Of a stretch of 64,000 bases of DNA, positions 39,059-46,577 are shown one piece after another. Each line of letters starts with the position of its first letter. Position 1 is the stretch's first letter. The DNA comes from Salinivibrio sharmensis (GTDB taxonomy: Bacteria; Pseudomonadota; Gammaproteobacteria; Enterobacterales; Vibrionaceae), in assembly GCF_001995985.1 (NCBI RefSeq), contig NZ_MUFC01000003.1, forward strand, positions 62,001 to 126,000, read 5' to 3'. The notes under the pieces are model-generated. The model did not search any database and was not told where the DNA came from. It saw nothing but the letters and a program-made list of their open reading frames with translations. Both the position numbers and the translations under genes were made by a program.

Positions 39059-39598
39059 ATGTGGCGCGCCTTAAACCAGTTTTCTCGCAGCCGAGCGTCC
39101 TGGCTGTTGTTGCTTCTATGTGTTGTCGGGTTAGAAGCCACAGCACTTTATTTTCAACACCATCAAGGGCTTGCACCTTGTGTAATGTGTATTTATGAAC
39201 GCGTCGCGTTATTGGGTATCGGTGTCGCCGCTTTACTTGGATTGATCGCGCCCAACGACCCTTTTTGGCGTACTCTCGGCTTAATTGGCTTTGGCGTCAC
39301 AGCCGGGTGGGCGCTAAAGCTCTCGTTAGAGCACGTAAGTTATCAATTTCCTGATCCGAACCAGTTGTTCGGTGCCACCTGCGATGTGGCGGTGAACTTC
39401 CCTTCTTGGGCGCCACTCAACCAATGGCTGCCATCCGTCTTTGAAGCCTACGGTGATTGCAGCAAAGTGATGTGGCAGTGGCTGGGATGGTCAATGCCAC
39501 AATGGCTAGTGGGGATCTTTACCGCGATGTTGTTTGTCTGGGCGTTAGTGGTCATTGCCCAATTTATTGGCCGCCCCCCACGCCGCATTTTTTCGTAA
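39059..39598 (+). CDS. dsbB: Disulfide bond formation protein B
   Basis: Inner-membrane quinone reductase that reoxidises DsbA. The 179-residue protein has four membrane helices and both periplasmic cysteine pairs: Cys41-Val-Met-Cys44 in the first loop and Cys108/Cys134 in the second. AGGAG precedes the ATG by six bases. A strong terminator immediately upstream implies that expression does not simply continue from nhaB. A short hairpin after the gene lies within the end of the convergent nudG-like gene. Confidence 0.96.
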   Translation: MWRALNQFSRSRASWLLLLLCVVGLEATALYFQHHQGLAPCVMCIYERVALLGIGVAALLGLIAPNDPFWRTLGLIGFGVTAGWALKLSLEHVSYQFPDPNQLFGATCDVAVNFPSWAPLNQWLPSVFEAYGDCSKVMWQWLGWSMPQWLVGIFTAMLFVWALVVIAQFIGRPPRRIFS

Positions 39599-41691: not shown

Positions 41692-41752
41692 GCCATACCT
41701 TTGCGATTAAGGCGCGCTATTTTGCCAGCTTTTTCGCCAAAGCGCAGCTAAC

Positions 41753-41783
41753 AAAAAAGCCAGTCAAAAAATGACTGGCTTTC
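41753..41783 (-). terminator. Terminator of the Scs operon
   Basis: Stem AAGCCAGTCA / TGACTGGCTT with a 5-base loop. On the minus strand it is followed by TTTTTT, 24 bases past the scsC-like stop. Confidence 0.88.
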
Positions 41784-41807
41784 ATATCGTTAGCGACACC
41801 GGTGGCG

Positions 41808-42539
41808 TTAGCCGTCGGCTCTTGCCGCGTCAACCATGGCTTCTAGCTGTGGGTAAGGCAAATAGCCAGGTGCGACCTGCTCGCCGATGATCATTGCTGG
41901 AGTGCCTCTGAGCCCCAGCTCAACAAAGGCGCGATAGTTTTCTGCAACCGCTTTCCCGGTCACCTCTTTGCCTTCTAGTAACGCCTCTGTGTCGGTTTTC
42001 TTGGCAATTTTCTCTAATGAGCGGGCATCATGCATACCGCGTTTATTCATCAATAATTGATGAACCTGCGCAAAGGCCTCAGGTTTTTCCAGCCACACAT
42101 TCATCGCATACACCGCTGAATTGGTGCCGAGTGATTCGATACTCTGCTGTTTGAGTGGTACGGCAATATTGATCACCTTGACATCATCATGCGCGGCGAC
42201 CAATTTCTGTAACTCTTCTTCCAGCTTTTTACAGTATGGGCAGTTGTAGTCCATAAAGTTCACCACTGTGACGTCAGGGTTCTCAGCACCAATCCAACTG
42301 TGGGTGTCCGATTCAAACCAATCACGGCGTGCAGCAAGGTTTTCCTTTAACGTTTTTTGTTGTTCAACAAACTTTTGCAAACTCTGGTTGAGGTTGGCAA
42401 TCAGTTTGGGGTTCTCTTCCAACAAGCTAACAATTTCGTCCAGTTGCGCTTGCTCAGTATCCGACAACGTATTCGCACTGACAGGAAGAGCCAGAAGCAG
42501 TAGAGCCCAAAAAGGGGCGATATAGCGAGATAAGGACAT
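41808..42539 (-). CDS. DsbA-family thiol oxidoreductase, ScsC-like
   Basis: Periplasmic thioredoxin-fold protein of 243 residues from the MSLSRYIAPF start (AAAGGAA upstream; the ORF extends further into the preceding gene). Signal peptide about 1-22 ending VSAN. A helical N-terminal arm (about 25-75, rich in Glu/Gln/Leu) precedes the DsbA domain with CPYC at 100-103 and the cis-Pro loop GTPAMII. A leading helical arm is what makes some ScsC proteins trimeric; this is inference. It is the last gene of an operon with ScsD- and ScsB-type partners and should receive electrons from ScsB, acting as an isomerase or reductase, perhaps against copper-induced misoxidation. Confidence 0.83.
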   Translation of the reverse strand: MSLSRYIAPFWALLLLALPVSANTLSDTEQAQLDEIVSLLEENPKLIANLNQSLQKFVEQQKTLKENLAARRDWFESDTHSWIGAENPDVTVVNFMDYNCPYCKKLEEELQKLVAAHDDVKVINIAVPLKQQSIESLGTNSAVYAMNVWLEKPEAFAQVHQLLMNKRGMHDARSLEKIAKKTDTEALLEGKEVTGKAVAENYRAFVELGLRGTPAMIIGEQVAPGYLPYPQLEAMVDAARADG

Positions 42540-42565
42540 TGGGTTTCCTTTTGATAAATATAAAG

Positions 42566-43087
42566 TCATAACACCAGCCTTAACCATAGGCCAAGCGGTG
42601 TCGTGAAGCCTGTTGTGATTGACGTGATTTTTCCTTGCTCGATCACCATCACGGTGGGCGTCACTTTCACCGCAAATGCGTTAGAAAGCGCCCCGCTTTG
42701 ATCGTTCACTACAGGAAAATCATAACCATGATGAGCAAGGTATCCCGCAACGTGTTTATCTGAGCCTGAGCGTAACGCGATCGAGACTACCTGCGCATGA
42801 CCACTTAACCAATCTACCGAGGGTGTCACAAAACGGCAGACACCGCACCAACTTGCCCATACATAGACAAGCACGGGCTTTTGCTGCGACATGACGATCA
42901 AATCCTGCTGGCGGCCATCCAGCAAACGCATCGACTCGACCGGCATCTGACTGGTGTCGATATCGCGGCTTCGCCACCAATCCATCGCGGTACTCGATAT
43001 CAGCACAAACACGATGAGCCAGCAAATGTCACGCGCACCGCGTTTGACCCGTTGACGCCAAGACCGTTTCATTTGCTTGGCTGTCAT
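42566..43087 (-). CDS. TlpA-like membrane-anchored thioredoxin, ScsD-like
   Basis: Thioredoxin-fold protein of 173 residues with one N-terminal membrane anchor (about 20-37) and a periplasmic domain. The active site is WASWCGVC with Cys81 and Cys84, and the cis-Pro loop is KVTPTVMVI. It matches the ScsD/TlpA group. Its start overlaps the end of scsB by four bases (ATGA), so translation is coupled. The stop is 26 bases before the ScsC-like start. Confidence 0.83.
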   Translation of the reverse strand: MTAKQMKRSWRQRVKRGARDICWLIVFVLISSTAMDWWRSRDIDTSQMPVESMRLLDGRQQDLIVMSQQKPVLVYVWASWCGVCRFVTPSVDWLSGHAQVVSIALRSGSDKHVAGYLAHHGYDFPVVNDQSGALSNAFAVKVTPTVMVIEQGKITSITTGFTTPLGLWLRLVL

Positions 43088-45207
43088 GGTGTTTTCGCCT
43101 GCTCAATCGCCGCCATCACCGCTCTATCAGTCAAAATAACCGGTAAGGCGATCCCTTCAGGCGCACCGGGGCCATAAACAATGTTGAACGGTACCCCATA
43201 ACGCTGGTGCTTTTGCAAATACTGCGTCACGGTATCGCTCGGGCGCGTCCAATCACCTTGCATTGACACCACATTCGGTGCGGTGATGGCGTCATACACG
43301 GGGGATTGTAAAATCACACCCACTTTGTTGGCATGGCAGGTAATGCACCAATCCGCCGTCACATCAACAAACACCAATTTACCCTGATCCACCGCTTGAT
43401 CGATCGCGGCCTCATCAAGACTCATCCAGTTTGGTTCCGAGTTTAATGGCGTTGCCCATCGCTGCGCGGTCAATGACGCACCAATCAGCCCAAGCACCAC
43501 CACCACTAGCAACCCAGCCGTGCCTTTAATCGCCGCTAGTTTTCCAAGGGTGCGATATGTTAGCCACACACTGGCAACCAGCAGCAGCGTGCCCACTGCG
43601 ATAGCGCCAGCAACGCCAAGATATGGCATCCACAACCAGAATAACCACACCGTGGTACCGGCCAGCAATAACGCGAATACCCGTTTGACATGATTCATCC
43701 AAGGGCCAGGTTTGGGCAATGCACGCGTCAGCCCAGGAAAAGCCGCGACCAATAGCCACGGCAGTGCCATGCCAACCGCCAGAGCGGTAAAGATCAACCA
43801 CAAAGAGGTCAAGGACCCACCCAGCGCGTACGCCACGGCCGTACCAAGGAAAGGGGCCGAACACGGTGTGGCCAGTAAGGTGGCAAACACGCCTTGAACG
43901 AAGTGGCCGCTGGTGGTGTGGCCGCCGCGTGTCGCTAGCCACGTCTGCCAACTGGGCGGTAAGTCAAGACGCAGCACATCAAATAAGCTCAGGGCGAACA
44001 GCCAAATCACCAGCGTCATCACCCCAATAAATATCGGGCTTTGAAACTGGATCCCCCAACCGACGGCTTGCCCGGTGAGCTTTAATGCCATTAACAGACC
44101 CGCAATCGCCCAAAAGGACACCAGGATCCCCACCGCTGAGGCCAAAAACTGGCCGCGAATAGCGCCACGTGTGGCACTTGGATTGGCCACGATACTGTTG
44201 AGCTTGAGCCCAAGTACGGGGAGCACACAGGGCATTACGTTGAGAATCAAGCCACCCAAGAGGGCAATCCCGCCAATCATCCAAATCGATAATCCGGCTT
44301 GCGAAACCACACTGCCCGCCTGCACGATAGTGGCATGCTCAGCCAGCAGTTGCTTATCCATGACCGTCACTTGAACCGGTTTATCGGTAAGGTTGGGCGT
44401 TTCAATCCAATTGGTGACATCAAAGGTCGCGGTCAAGGTATCGCCATCACGCTGGATACTCGGCACGCCAAAGGTATCATCGATAACCGCATCACCATCC
44501 ACCAGCATATCGGGTTGCTGCCAAGCTTGGCTCCCAGTCACAGTGACCGCGAGCTGTTGCTGATTGGTATCCCACACCGCGGACTCAATCTGTACACTGG
44601 GTAGCGGCTTAGGCACTTGGCTCATCGCTTGGTTGAACTGATACATCCGCTCACCATCAGCCTCAAGCGTGCTCGGGGTAAAATCGAGAGAGAGCGGATA
44701 GTCAGTAATCACACACACAGTGGTGCACGAAGATAAACGTAAGGTGGCATCCAGCGATACCGGCTGTTGCCACGTATTAACCTCAAAGGTCAGCGGGAAA
44801 GTCACCTGCCCTTTGTAGCCCAACATGGTCAGGCCAAGTAGCTCATGGCGACTAGGGGCCGGCCAATGCCAAGTAATATCGTCCAGGTTTTGGCTGTCGT
44901 TGATGATAAGTTCCGGCGCCACCCCGCCCTCGCCTGGCGAGCGCCAATACGTTTTCCAATGGCCTTGTAACCGGATAGAGAGCAACCCATCGAGGTGTTG
45001 AGTCTCTGGATGACCTTGTCCAGTTAATGCGAGGCGCGCCTCAACGGGCGGATGGTCGGGGTTACTGAGCCAACCTGTATCAGGCGCAGTGGCTCGTACC
45101 GCCGGGCTGAGTAGCAGTAAGAACAAAAACAAAAGCGGCAGTAAAGCAAAACCTTGCCAAACATAGCCGTGTTTAACAAAGCGCCAATAGTTTTTGAGTC
45201 GATTCAT
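43084..45207 (-). CDS. DsbD-like transmembrane electron carrier, ScsB-like
   Basis: Membrane reductase of 707 residues that passes electrons from cytoplasmic thioredoxin to periplasmic partners. A signal anchor lies at about 16-38, followed by a large periplasmic N-terminal region (about 45-300). Then come about eight membrane segments with two conserved cysteine motifs, NVMPCVLPVLGLKL and ATPCSAPFLGTAVAY. The C-terminal thioredoxin domain has ADWCITCHANK. This is the ScsB layout, larger than E. coli DsbD (565) because of the N-terminal part. Operon partners ScsD and ScsC follow. Confidence 0.88.
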   Translation of the reverse strand: MNRLKNYWRFVKHGYVWQGFALLPLLFLFLLLLSPAVRATAPDTGWLSNPDHPPVEARLALTGQGHPETQHLDGLLSIRLQGHWKTYWRSPGEGGVAPELIINDSQNLDDITWHWPAPSRHELLGLTMLGYKGQVTFPLTFEVNTWQQPVSLDATLRLSSCTTVCVITDYPLSLDFTPSTLEADGERMYQFNQAMSQVPKPLPSVQIESAVWDTNQQQLAVTVTGSQAWQQPDMLVDGDAVIDDTFGVPSIQRDGDTLTATFDVTNWIETPNLTDKPVQVTVMDKQLLAEHATIVQAGSVVSQAGLSIWMIGGIALLGGLILNVMPCVLPVLGLKLNSIVANPSATRGAIRGQFLASAVGILVSFWAIAGLLMALKLTGQAVGWGIQFQSPIFIGVMTLVIWLFALSLFDVLRLDLPPSWQTWLATRGGHTTSGHFVQGVFATLLATPCSAPFLGTAVAYALGGSLTSLWLIFTALAVGMALPWLLVAAFPGLTRALPKPGPWMNHVKRVFALLLAGTTVWLFWLWMPYLGVAGAIAVGTLLLVASVWLTYRTLGKLAAIKGTAGLLVVVVLGLIGASLTAQRWATPLNSEPNWMSLDEAAIDQAVDQGKLVFVDVTADWCITCHANKVGVILQSPVYDAITAPNVVSMQGDWTRPSDTVTQYLQKHQRYGVPFNIVYGPGAPEGIALPVILTDRAVMAAIEQAKTP

Positions 45208-45256
45208 AAGTCTGTTCCTTGTTAAGAATAAATACGCTATTTAGGAAGCTGGCGCT

Positions 45257-45616
45257 TTATTCTCGGAACACACAAAAGCAAAGGTGCCGTCGTCGATAGG
45301 TGGGTGGGTCGTGAGTGGGTAAGGTGATCGATACACTAACGGTCGCCATCACCGCAAGTAGCACAATCAGCCACCAAAGTGGTGACGGTAGCCAGTCTAA
45401 TGCCAACGCAGACGGATGCATCAACTGCTCAGAAAGCGAACACTTTTTACCCAGTGCGCTTTTTGCTCCCTCGGCGTCACCAATACTGACTGCTTGGCAA
45501 ACCGCTTGCGCCCCTGATTGCCAGCTCAGTTGGTTTTGCAAGGCACACACTGCTAGAACCCATAACGCAATCGCGAGGGCCCAGCCAGCTTTTGAACGAC
45601 GCGTGTACCTTTGCAT
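45257..45616 (-). CDS. Small membrane protein heading the Scs operon, unassigned
   Basis: Hypothetical protein of 119 residues from an ATG with an excellent AGGAGGTGGA upstream; the ORF could extend 12 codons further. Two hydrophobic segments are visible: about 11-27 and 80-97. Cysteines occur at 20, 36 and 55-56 and in the C-terminal RRRHLCFCVFRE tail, which has a CxC. It is cotranscribed with the ScsB-like gene, 49 bases downstream. Salmonella ScsA is of similar length and heads the scs locus, but I cannot confirm homology. Plausible role: accessory factor for copper or thiol stress; not demonstrated. Confidence 0.7.
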   Translation of the reverse strand: MQRYTRRSKAGWALAIALWVLAVCALQNQLSWQSGAQAVCQAVSIGDAEGAKSALGKKCSLSEQLMHPSALALDWLPSPLWWLIVLLAVMATVSVSITLPTHDPPTYRRRHLCFCVFRE

Positions 45617-45707
45617 TCCACCTCCTGTCGAGTTGGCGATCATTATGCCCAACAGCAGAAAATAAACAATGGGTTAGTCTGCACCACGGGGTGATAACGC
45701 TTTGGCG

Positions 45708-46148
45708 TTATCGCGGTTGCTGAGTCAACTGGATATGATCCTCCCAATCAATCACATCGATTTCGTACACCACGCTCTCTTTGACCGAGATCCCCGCTTT
45801 ATGCATCGCCGCTTTTGATCCTGTGATCAGAGGGTGCCACTCAGGCAGCGGTTTATTCTCCGCCAACAAGCGATACGCACAGGTTTCCGGCAGCCAATAA
45901 AACTCATCAATTTTATCGCGGGTAAGCTTCAAACATGACTCTTCATACGAAAAGCGGTTGGGATAGTCTTTGCACGAGCAGGTTTTATCATCGAGCAAAC
46001 TACAAGCGACATTGGTGTAGTAAAGCTCGTCTGTCTCTTCATCAATCAATTTGTGTAGGCAGCAACGGCCACAACCGTCACATAAAGATTCCCACTCCTC
46101 ATCGCTCATTTGCGCTAAGGTTTTTTGTTGCCAAAACGGCGTGCTCAT
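45708..46148 (-). CDS. ycgN: UPF0260 family cysteine-cluster protein YcgN
   Basis: Cytoplasmic protein of 146 residues in the YkgJ-type zinc/iron-chelating superfamily. The metal-binding pattern begins [13 protein letters not shown], continues with [18 protein letters not shown] and ends with ESCLKL and [10 protein letters not shown] chose [11 protein letters not shown] as the start, in agreement with YcgN N-termini; the longer ORF lacks support. Function unknown. It is head-to-head with a second cysteine-cluster gene and downstream of the Scs operon on the same strand order, though not part of it. Confidence 0.9.
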
Positions 46149-46310
46149 GATGTTTAATCTCTTTTTTATTGCCGCCTTTTCACGGCAACGACATTGCGCG
46201 CTTGTTATAACCATCATAGCCCTAAAGTGCAAGCAAGGCTTTTGTGGGTTGGATAGTGCAAAAGTGAGTGGTAGAGTGCCCGACTTTGCACGTTGACGGA
46301 GGCCATGACT

Positions 46311-46577
46311 ATGCCAACTGCATCGCCATTTTCGTGCCGCCTTGGGTGTGGTGCTTGCTGTATCGCGCCTAGCATTTCGTCACCGATCCCCGGAATGCCA
46401 AACGGTAAGCCCGCTGACACCCGTTGTGTGCAGCTGGATGATCGCAACCTATGTAAGCTATTTGGCTCTGACAACCGCCCCGATGTGTGTGCCGCATTCG
46501 ATGCCGACCCTGATGTGTGTGGTAATACCTATCAGCAAGCGCTCGACAACCTTATTTATCTGGAAGCGGCGACATAA
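46311..46577 (+). CDS. YkgJ family cysteine-cluster protein
   Basis: Small protein of 88 residues with the CxxCxxC-type cluster [13 protein letters not shown] near the N-terminus and further cysteines in TRCVQL, NLCKLFG, DVCAAF and DVCGNTY, enough for one metal site. Three starts are possible; GGAGG at 46298-46302 sits eight bases before the ATG at 46311, against two bases for 46305, so 46311 is preferred. The stop codon overlaps the A-run of the terminator used by the opposite-strand gene. Function unknown; likely zinc or iron-sulfur binding. Confidence 0.83.

Follow-up and report, generated by a model that had tools for sequence, protein, structure and literature searches.

The 64,000-nucleotide (nt) stretch of Salinivibrio sharmensis DNA analyzed here (the window; contig NZ_MUFC01000003.1, positions 62,001 to 126,000) carries an scs-type thiol redox operon headed by a 119-residue protein, which by homology to annotated ScsA and by synteny with scsB is the counterpart of ScsA. 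The C-terminal peptide of this leader is conserved up to its stop codon, and its last codons form one arm of a predicted RNA hairpin that reaches the scsB start. A peptide kept to the stop codon, together with an RNA stem at the start of the next gene, favors a regulatory leader over a component of a thiol relay. We consider it fairly probable that ScsA exerts its effect chiefly in cis, serving scsB and the scsD and scsC genes behind it as a nascent-chain leader. The elements concerned are:

45257..45616, minus strand: the scsA-type leader open reading frame (ORF), 119 residues (from the ORF, hydropathy, conservation and homology to annotated ScsA).
45252..45268, minus strand: the 5' arm of the hairpin, TTC CGA GAA TAA followed by AGCGC (from the z-score of the window fold, family folding and covariation).
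45215..45237, minus strand: the 3' arm of the hairpin, GCGTATTTATTCTT with the scsB Shine-Dalgarno sequence AAGGAA at 45215-45220 (from folds and opening energy).

A profile hidden Markov model built from 27 Vibrionaceae leaders (profile A1) matched the annotated ScsA of Klebsiella aerogenes (locus L210) with an E-value of 4e-12 among 6500 ORFs, in a row annotated ScsA-B-C-D. This match and the synteny with scsB bear out the suggestion of an earlier, sequence-only reading of this DNA that the leader may be the ScsA counterpart. Nor did an unrelated family claim the leader: against Pfam and NCBIfam no model rose above its cut-off, five of its relatives gave sub-threshold Pfam matches or none, with DUF2946 absent from them, and a profile search of the PDB returned a single match with an E-value of 0.31, which we took as chance.

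Profile A1 found relatives of the leader in 146 of 247 Vibrionaceae genomes at a threshold of 0.001 and in 92 of 345 genomes of the order at 0.01, a few of the latter being weak and broken; a search at the level of the phylum gave matches in 22 of 398 genomes, 19 of them from the same order and the remaining three weak or broken. For a sample free of gene context, a degenerate 36-nt pattern of the leader tail alone was scanned over a species-genome collection, the figures referring to the matches listed. The pattern occurred in at least 118 genome stretches, and 115 of these 118 held an ORF of the family; the exceptions were one 13-residue chance match and two similar tails interrupted by the end of the slice. 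Pooling all searches gave 208 leader hits and, once identical leader ends had been collapsed, 165 distinct ones, 109 of them pattern-derived (again among the matches listed). Six leaders with no more than 222 nt of downstream DNA were left out, and among the 159 assessable for synteny scsB lay downstream in 152, in 149 of them within 256 nt. The gaps had a median of 52 nt, and 51 of them measured 48 or 49 nt. The co-occurrence with scsB that the sequence-only reading had marked for checking was also found: across 61 Vibrionaceae genomes, tallied by hand from the search lists for presence in the genome rather than adjacency, 41 had both genes, seven scsB only, one the leader only and 12 neither (Fisher p = 3e-7). 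The sole leader-only case (L245, in the Vibrionaceae genome G020) is a degraded scs locus in which a tailless leader lies beside remnants of scsB and scsD. In another genome (G055) the leader precedes scsD, and scsB is found elsewhere on the same contig. An intact leader is hardly ever found away from scs genes. Complete genomes of Escherichia coli gave no near match to the Citrobacter stretch from scsA onward, in a search that needs about 85% identity or more; E. coli K-12 is described as having no scs genes (PMC3672137).

The leader also holds the first place where the gene behind it changes. The seven assessable leaders that are not followed by scsB stand before scsD (five), scsC (one, L175) or RND-type efflux genes (one). 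In the five scsD loci, the Photobacterium loci L155, L119 and L143 together with L180 and L053, scsD is the first scs gene, 374-392 nt downstream, and no scsB was found at the locus; an ORF-by-ORF reading of L155 placed a small ORF between leader and scsD. The efflux genes, recognized by eye, encode a membrane fusion protein and a pump in an Oleispira metagenome-assembled genome (L144, 5583-8000), and in Shewanella fidelis (L100, 5-7079) RND-type efflux genes, likewise identified by eye, stand between the leader and scsB. That the leader stays in front although its neighbor changes is a leader-like habit. Two further loci have unusual arrangements: Vibrio sp. S17_S38 (L140, 4429-7437) carries two tandem leader copies around a minus-strand pair resembling an AbiE-type toxin-antitoxin system (by eye), with scsB after the second copy, and in a genome of the same genus as the window (G006, L008) scsB is fragmented, with three pieces and internal stops, next to an intact leader.

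The window leader ends in HLCFCVFRE, and the family tail, RxHLx[F/L]CxF[R/Q]E, runs conserved up to the stop codon. The sequence-only reading had drawn attention to a CFC tail; the three residues are indeed there in the window, and across the family the second cysteine alone is kept (165 of 165 leaders), the first column being mostly Thr or Arg. The tail is present by construction in the 109 pattern-derived leaders, and the informative set is the other 56, found without the pattern: the full motif occurs in 47 of these, and a cysteine five residues from the end in all 56. Synonymous codons for the tail His, Leu, Cys and Arg vary freely (for example TGT 31, TGC 31), and only the Phe-Arg-Glu-stop portion falls inside the RNA stem. 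Free synonymous codons at a conserved tail indicate that selection acts on the peptide.

Hydropathy analysis gave two hydrophobic stretches in the leader, which in the window is laid out as a first transmembrane (TM) segment at about residues 8-32 containing Cys24, a variable loop, Cys59, a second TM segment at about residues 76-98, and the tail R109-x-H111-L-x-F-C115-x-F-R-E119-stop. An AlphaFold2 prediction from 36 sequences returned helices only (residues 6-45, 69-73 and 77-95) at modest confidence (mean predicted local distance difference test score 68.9, predicted template modeling score 0.37), and its two long helices agree with the two-helix protein of the sequence-only reading. Cys24 and Cys59 are present in 165 of 165 leaders; both lie outside the search pattern, although the profile that collected the leaders contains them. 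The spacing between these two cysteines varies from 16 to 72 residues, and the distance from Cys59 to the C-terminal end is 61-63 residues in 162 of the 165. A nascent chain has approximately 30-35 residues inside the ribosome and a further 20-25 inside the translocon; by these lengths, a ribosome positioned at the stop codon would have Cys59 just coming out into the periplasm. This ruler from Cys59 to the stop codon is suggestive only, since a fixed two-helix architecture would equally preserve the length.

A thioredoxin fold was not predicted for the leader (AlphaFold2 at modest confidence and no Pfam match; no fold search was made). CxxC is absent from the window leader and occurs in the body of just 5 of 62 non-redundant relatives, with body limits set by an approximate rule, and CxxxC occurs in none of the 165 leader bodies. 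On this evidence, with the fold not predicted and CxxC not conserved, the leader appears to lie outside the thioredoxin superfamily; its conservation resembles that of a regulatory leader, and the sequence-only suggestion of a new thiol redox component is not favored.

The hairpin between the leader codons and the scsB start is an addition to what had been noted for this DNA. Its z-score in the window was -3.02 for 45222-45268 (47 nt) and -1.92 for 45190-45300 (111 nt), and in the longer fold GGAA of the Shine-Dalgarno sequence pairs with TTCC of the leader. For the family, 138 loci with gaps of 25-160 nt were reduced to one per 70%-identity cluster, leaving 62, and folded in 44-nt segments against dinucleotide shuffles. 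The mean z was -2.12 (standard error 0.22) in the segment that starts from the last sense codon, -0.98 and -1.37 in the overlapping neighbors, and between -0.90 and +0.55 in all others, which covered 150 nt on the upstream side and 120 nt on the downstream side. In 53 of 63 structures, a set counting the window as well as a relative nearly identical to it, one or more bases of the stop codon open a stem. Enterobacterial loci such as L168 pair the last four codons, TTC CGT GAA TGA, with the scsB Shine-Dalgarno region, TCATTTACGGAG, at every base if wobbles are counted. The structure distinguishes this junction from others: 49 scsA-scsB junctions (gap of no more than 85 nt and a recognizable Shine-Dalgarno sequence) had a mean z of -2.41, compared with -0.56 at 37 other gene junctions from the pattern-derived loci (p = 8e-6).

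Covariation was assessed by aligning the 66 sequences that have GGAG 35-41 nt downstream of the stop codon; this alignment was not thinned for relatedness and omits the window copy and copies whose Shine-Dalgarno sequence lies elsewhere or reads AGGA. Over a 12-bp stem, 88.1% of cells were paired, compared with 82.9% in shuffled alignments and 44-69% in slid versions; the covariation score was 0.215 (0.132 shuffled), and 38 cells were changed on both sides (17.0 shuffled), figures that none of 500 shuffles reached for pairing, covariation or cells. The support from covariation is good on these three of five measures. In Klebsiella (L211), for instance, a change of GAA to GAG is matched by TTT to CTT, and in Pantoea (L151) CGT to CGG is matched by ACG to CCG. 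Arms taken from the same locus paired better, at -9.10, than permuted arms, at -7.36 (standard deviation 0.22; 90 arm pairs, 200 permutations). Covering 23 nt around the stop codon lowered the cost of opening the Shine-Dalgarno sequence from 5.26 to 2.27 kcal/mol, and in controls from 3.3 to 2.07 kcal/mol.

These features can be joined in a mechanism in which a ribosome at the scsA stop codon would cover the 5' arm and make the scsB start site more accessible. The tail Arg, His and Cys, at 11, 9 and 5 residues from the end and in the upper exit tunnel, would slow termination, and Cu(I) binding or the disulfide state at Cys24/Cys59, at or beyond the translocon, would set the length of the pause. 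Output of ScsB, ScsC and ScsD would then scale with copper or thiol stress in the periplasm, and ScsA, once released, would be broken down or no longer needed. ScsA would thus work like CutF (PMC9973294), whose published logic CruR follows with a different read-out, and would probably sense periplasmic copper or thiols; we infer both the pausing and the sensing. In its most specific form, which we put forward tentatively, as possible rather than probable, ScsA would be, rather than an enzyme, a nascent-chain sensor of Gammaproteobacteria whose translation pauses at the stop codon of its own frame, with a tail that blocks release, a cysteine about 62 residues back that reads periplasmic copper or thiol via the translocon, and terminal sense codons that serve as the anti-Shine-Dalgarno sequence of scsB.

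That scsA regulates scsBCD is already published: as far as the available text of the papers cited here and below goes, in Salmonella the loss of scsA leads to higher levels of scsBCD mRNA, and the authors suggest that scsA regulates scsBCD, the available text giving no mechanism (PMC4746619). A whole-frame scsA deletion with the cassette removed was not copper sensitive, whereas scsB, scsC and scsD deletions were, and the peroxide sensitivity of the scsA deletion was gone when all of scsABCD was deleted (PMC3672137). Loss of the anti-Shine-Dalgarno arm and deregulated scsBCD would lead one to expect such phenotypes. Single-gene complementation of single scs mutants failed, with data not given in the available text (PMC3672137), an outcome that could reflect either cis dependence or poor expression. 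ScsA was classed as an oxidoreductase by the authors of that study (PMC3672137), and a 2022 paper states that little is known about it (PMC8900818). Among the open-access papers listed, with subscription papers and supplements outside the scope, we found no proposal of ScsA as a nascent-chain leader; within that set this mode of action is apparently new.

A number of observations weigh against ScsA as a cis-acting leader. Plasmid-borne scsA restored the cortisol phenotype (PMC4746619), which argues against a purely cis role. The up-regulation of scsBCD was measured as mRNA on microarrays, not as translation, and could stem from the cassette present in that strain (PMC4746619), and scsA and scsBCD are described as separate transcription units, citing work from 1997 (PMC3672137, PMC4746619). 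By profile, 7 of the 48 scsB-bearing Vibrionaceae genomes have no leader; in six of them the roughly 1.2 kb before scsB show no trace of one, and in the seventh (G004) the locus is degraded, so that scsB can do without a leader. When the sequence ahead of leaderless scsB genes was scanned at maximum sensitivity, the degraded L245 was the only convincing leader to emerge. In the RNA, two covariation measures were no better than chance expectation, with 4 pairs changed on both sides against 3.8 in shuffles (reached by 377 of 500) and 12 further pair types against 11.3 (reached by 200 of 500), and RNAalifold recovered 5 of the 12 pairs from the 66-sequence alignment, at -3.09 kcal/mol. Both the shuffle and the permutation controls keep the relatedness among the sequences. 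Covering the stop codon raised the mean probability that the Shine-Dalgarno sequence is unpaired from 0.20 to 0.42 only (controls 0.35 to 0.45), and the energy of the duplex between tail codons and Shine-Dalgarno sequence showed no difference from controls (p = 0.10). In the window copy the contact with the Shine-Dalgarno sequence is weak: the opening cost went from 2.05 to 1.26 kcal/mol and the unpaired probability from 0.29 to 0.25.

Bacteria often couple the translation of neighboring genes by masking a start site, and plain coupling, in which the hairpin ties scsB translation to ribosomes finishing scsA with neither pausing nor sensing, is a rather unlikely account of the data. For such coupling the hairpin alone would suffice, and ScsA would be an ordinary small membrane protein retaining its two-helix architecture. 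It leaves unexplained why an 11-residue tail with free codons is fixed as peptide and always ends at the stop codon, why the distance from Cys59 to the stop codon is constant despite a variable preceding loop, and why the leader stays first when the next gene changes. Alternatively, the hairpin could attenuate transcription, intrinsically or in connection with Rho, instead of masking the Shine-Dalgarno sequence. The U-rich stretches that follow several gap hairpins (for example in L012, L023 and L024) would fit this account, as would the action of CruR through Rho (PMC9426467) and the report that scsA deletion acts at the level of mRNA (PMC4746619); we hold it to be improbable, and against it stands the enterobacterial 3' arm, which ends in the Shine-Dalgarno sequence (TCATTTACGGAG in L168) with no U run after the stem.

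It is also quite improbable, in our view, that ScsA is a trans-acting membrane partner of ScsB, a carrier of copper or electrons whose cytoplasmic HLxFC tail and exported cysteines do the chemistry, with the cis linkage an operon convenience. The invariant Cys and His would suit metal or thiol chemistry, the Klebsiella record labels ScsA a putative copper-binding protein, and both the plasmid complementation (PMC4746619) and the published oxidoreductase class (PMC3672137) point in the same direction. A partner of this kind would, however, be one with no predicted thioredoxin fold and a body CxxC in only 5 of 62 relatives, its deletion does not cause the copper sensitivity seen on loss of ScsB, ScsC or ScsD (PMC3672137), and the hairpin is left without explanation. 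If ScsA is instead a cis-acting leader, the phenotypes of Salmonella scsA deletions may reflect deregulated scsBCD, and a whole-frame deletion of scsA (as in PMC3672137) would also remove half of the regulatory hairpin.

The operon itself consists of four minus-strand ORFs in the order A-B-D-C, and the ScsB-, ScsD- and ScsC-like genes that the sequence-only reading placed behind the 119-residue leader were recovered with a 49-nt gap between leader and scsB, a 4-nt overlap of scsB and scsD, and a 26-nt gap between scsD and scsC. The observation made in that reading is confirmed, and its interpretation is partly supported. The remaining features are:

45617..45650, minus strand: leader ribosome-binding site AGGAGG and a possible -10 element CATAAT (by eye, from the sequence; the promoter is a candidate).
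43084..45207, minus strand: scsB, a DsbD-like membrane thiol reductase of 707 residues (from Pfam and the 6c29 match).
42566..43087, minus strand: scsD, a membrane-anchored TlpA/ResA-like thioredoxin of 173 residues with WCGVC (from Pfam Redoxin and Thioredoxin).
41808..42539, minus strand: scsC, a secreted DsbA/DsbC-like protein with an N-terminal arm and NCPYC (from the ORF, Pfam and 4xvw).
41748..41795, minus strand: a terminator-like hairpin at the operon end (fold of -23.5 kcal/mol, z -6.76).

The leader starts with ATG, with AGGAGG immediately 5' of it, and a consensus promoter scan gave no call at the leader. Pfam placed DsbD_N, DsbD_TM and Thioredoxin_7 on ScsB, whose N-terminal domain matched PDB entry 6c29 with an E-value of 5e-40, and DSBA on ScsC. 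ScsB was considered as the only DsbD of this genome on the strength of one PF02683 match, a view dropped when a second search gave another DsbD-like place on contig C8. The longest scsC ORF starts at 42587; the start with its own Shine-Dalgarno sequence and a signal-peptide-like N-terminus, chosen by eye, is at 42539, and the distance to scsD is therefore a gap of 26 nt instead of an overlap. The helical N-terminal arm like that of trimeric ScsC, which the sequence-only reading had described, agrees with a phmmer alignment to trimeric Proteus mirabilis ScsC (4xvw; PMC5524982) with an E-value of 8e-32, in which residues 54-253 of the window protein match chain residues 19-216, a stretch that takes in the catalytic domain and some of the N-terminal arm. 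The hairpin 3' of scsC (41748-41795) is accompanied by U residues and was not among the calls of a consensus terminator scan. Adjoining the operon on opposite strands are two CxxCxxCC cysteine-cluster proteins, one of the YcgN family (45708-46148, minus strand, and 46293-46577, plus strand), and a DsbB-like ORF, identified by eye from a PCVMC motif, lies about 2.2 kb past the operon end (39059-39598, plus strand).

In SecM, VemP, MifM and TnaC a C-terminal motif at or near the stop codon controls the next gene via mRNA structure. We know of no sequence relation of the leader to any of them; conservation of the C-terminal peptide at the amino-acid level, a trait of arrest leaders, is found here by the codon analysis, and the leader differs from these peptides in a conserved tail that runs to the last residue, and in that pausing is inferred. 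The closest counterpart is the ScsA of scsABCD, named after Salmonella and annotated in Klebsiella, which belongs to the same family and shares the place directly before scsB, the tail and the cysteines. The gene order there is A-B-C-D rather than the A-B-D-C of the window, and Salmonella ScsA has by published description a CxxC, which the window leader and most relatives lack.

CutF of Rhodobacter capsulatus is likewise a small exported ORF heading a copper operon, with exported cysteines, a conserved C-terminal motif and a stem-loop over the Shine-Dalgarno sequence of the next gene (PMC9973294). Of the rules for CutF-like proteins in the available text of that paper, the leader shares a length below 150 residues, a same-strand gene within 1000 nt and a predicted stem-loop at the Shine-Dalgarno sequence; the window leader has neither CxxxC nor PP within the last 15 residues, its PP lying at residues 16 and 15 from the end with one Pro inside that limit (PP occurs in 21 of 62 relatives), and judged by its sequence the leader is not CutF-like by that paper's definition. 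It also differs from CutF in that hydropathy gives it two TM segments where CutF has a cleaved signal, in a stem that uses the leader's own last codons, and in the tail RxHLx[FL]CxF[RQ]E (PMC9973294). CruR, of the DUF2946 family, is similarly an upstream ORF at the head of copper operons, in which the spacing between exported cysteines and a C-terminal motif is conserved (PMC9426467). DUF2946 (PF11162) was tried as a distant parent of the leader and set aside: it was found nowhere in the leader's own genome at an E-value of 1e-4 and in 1 of 114 genomes of the class, in searches that included no profile-profile comparison. Compared with CruR, the leader is without RAPP, its gap has a median of 52 nt rather than 162 bp, and its stem reaches the Shine-Dalgarno sequence rather than acting through a Rho site (PMC9426467). 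If our proposal holds, ScsA would be a copper/thiol sensor distinct from both DUF2946 and CutF, and its tail a new arrest-like motif.

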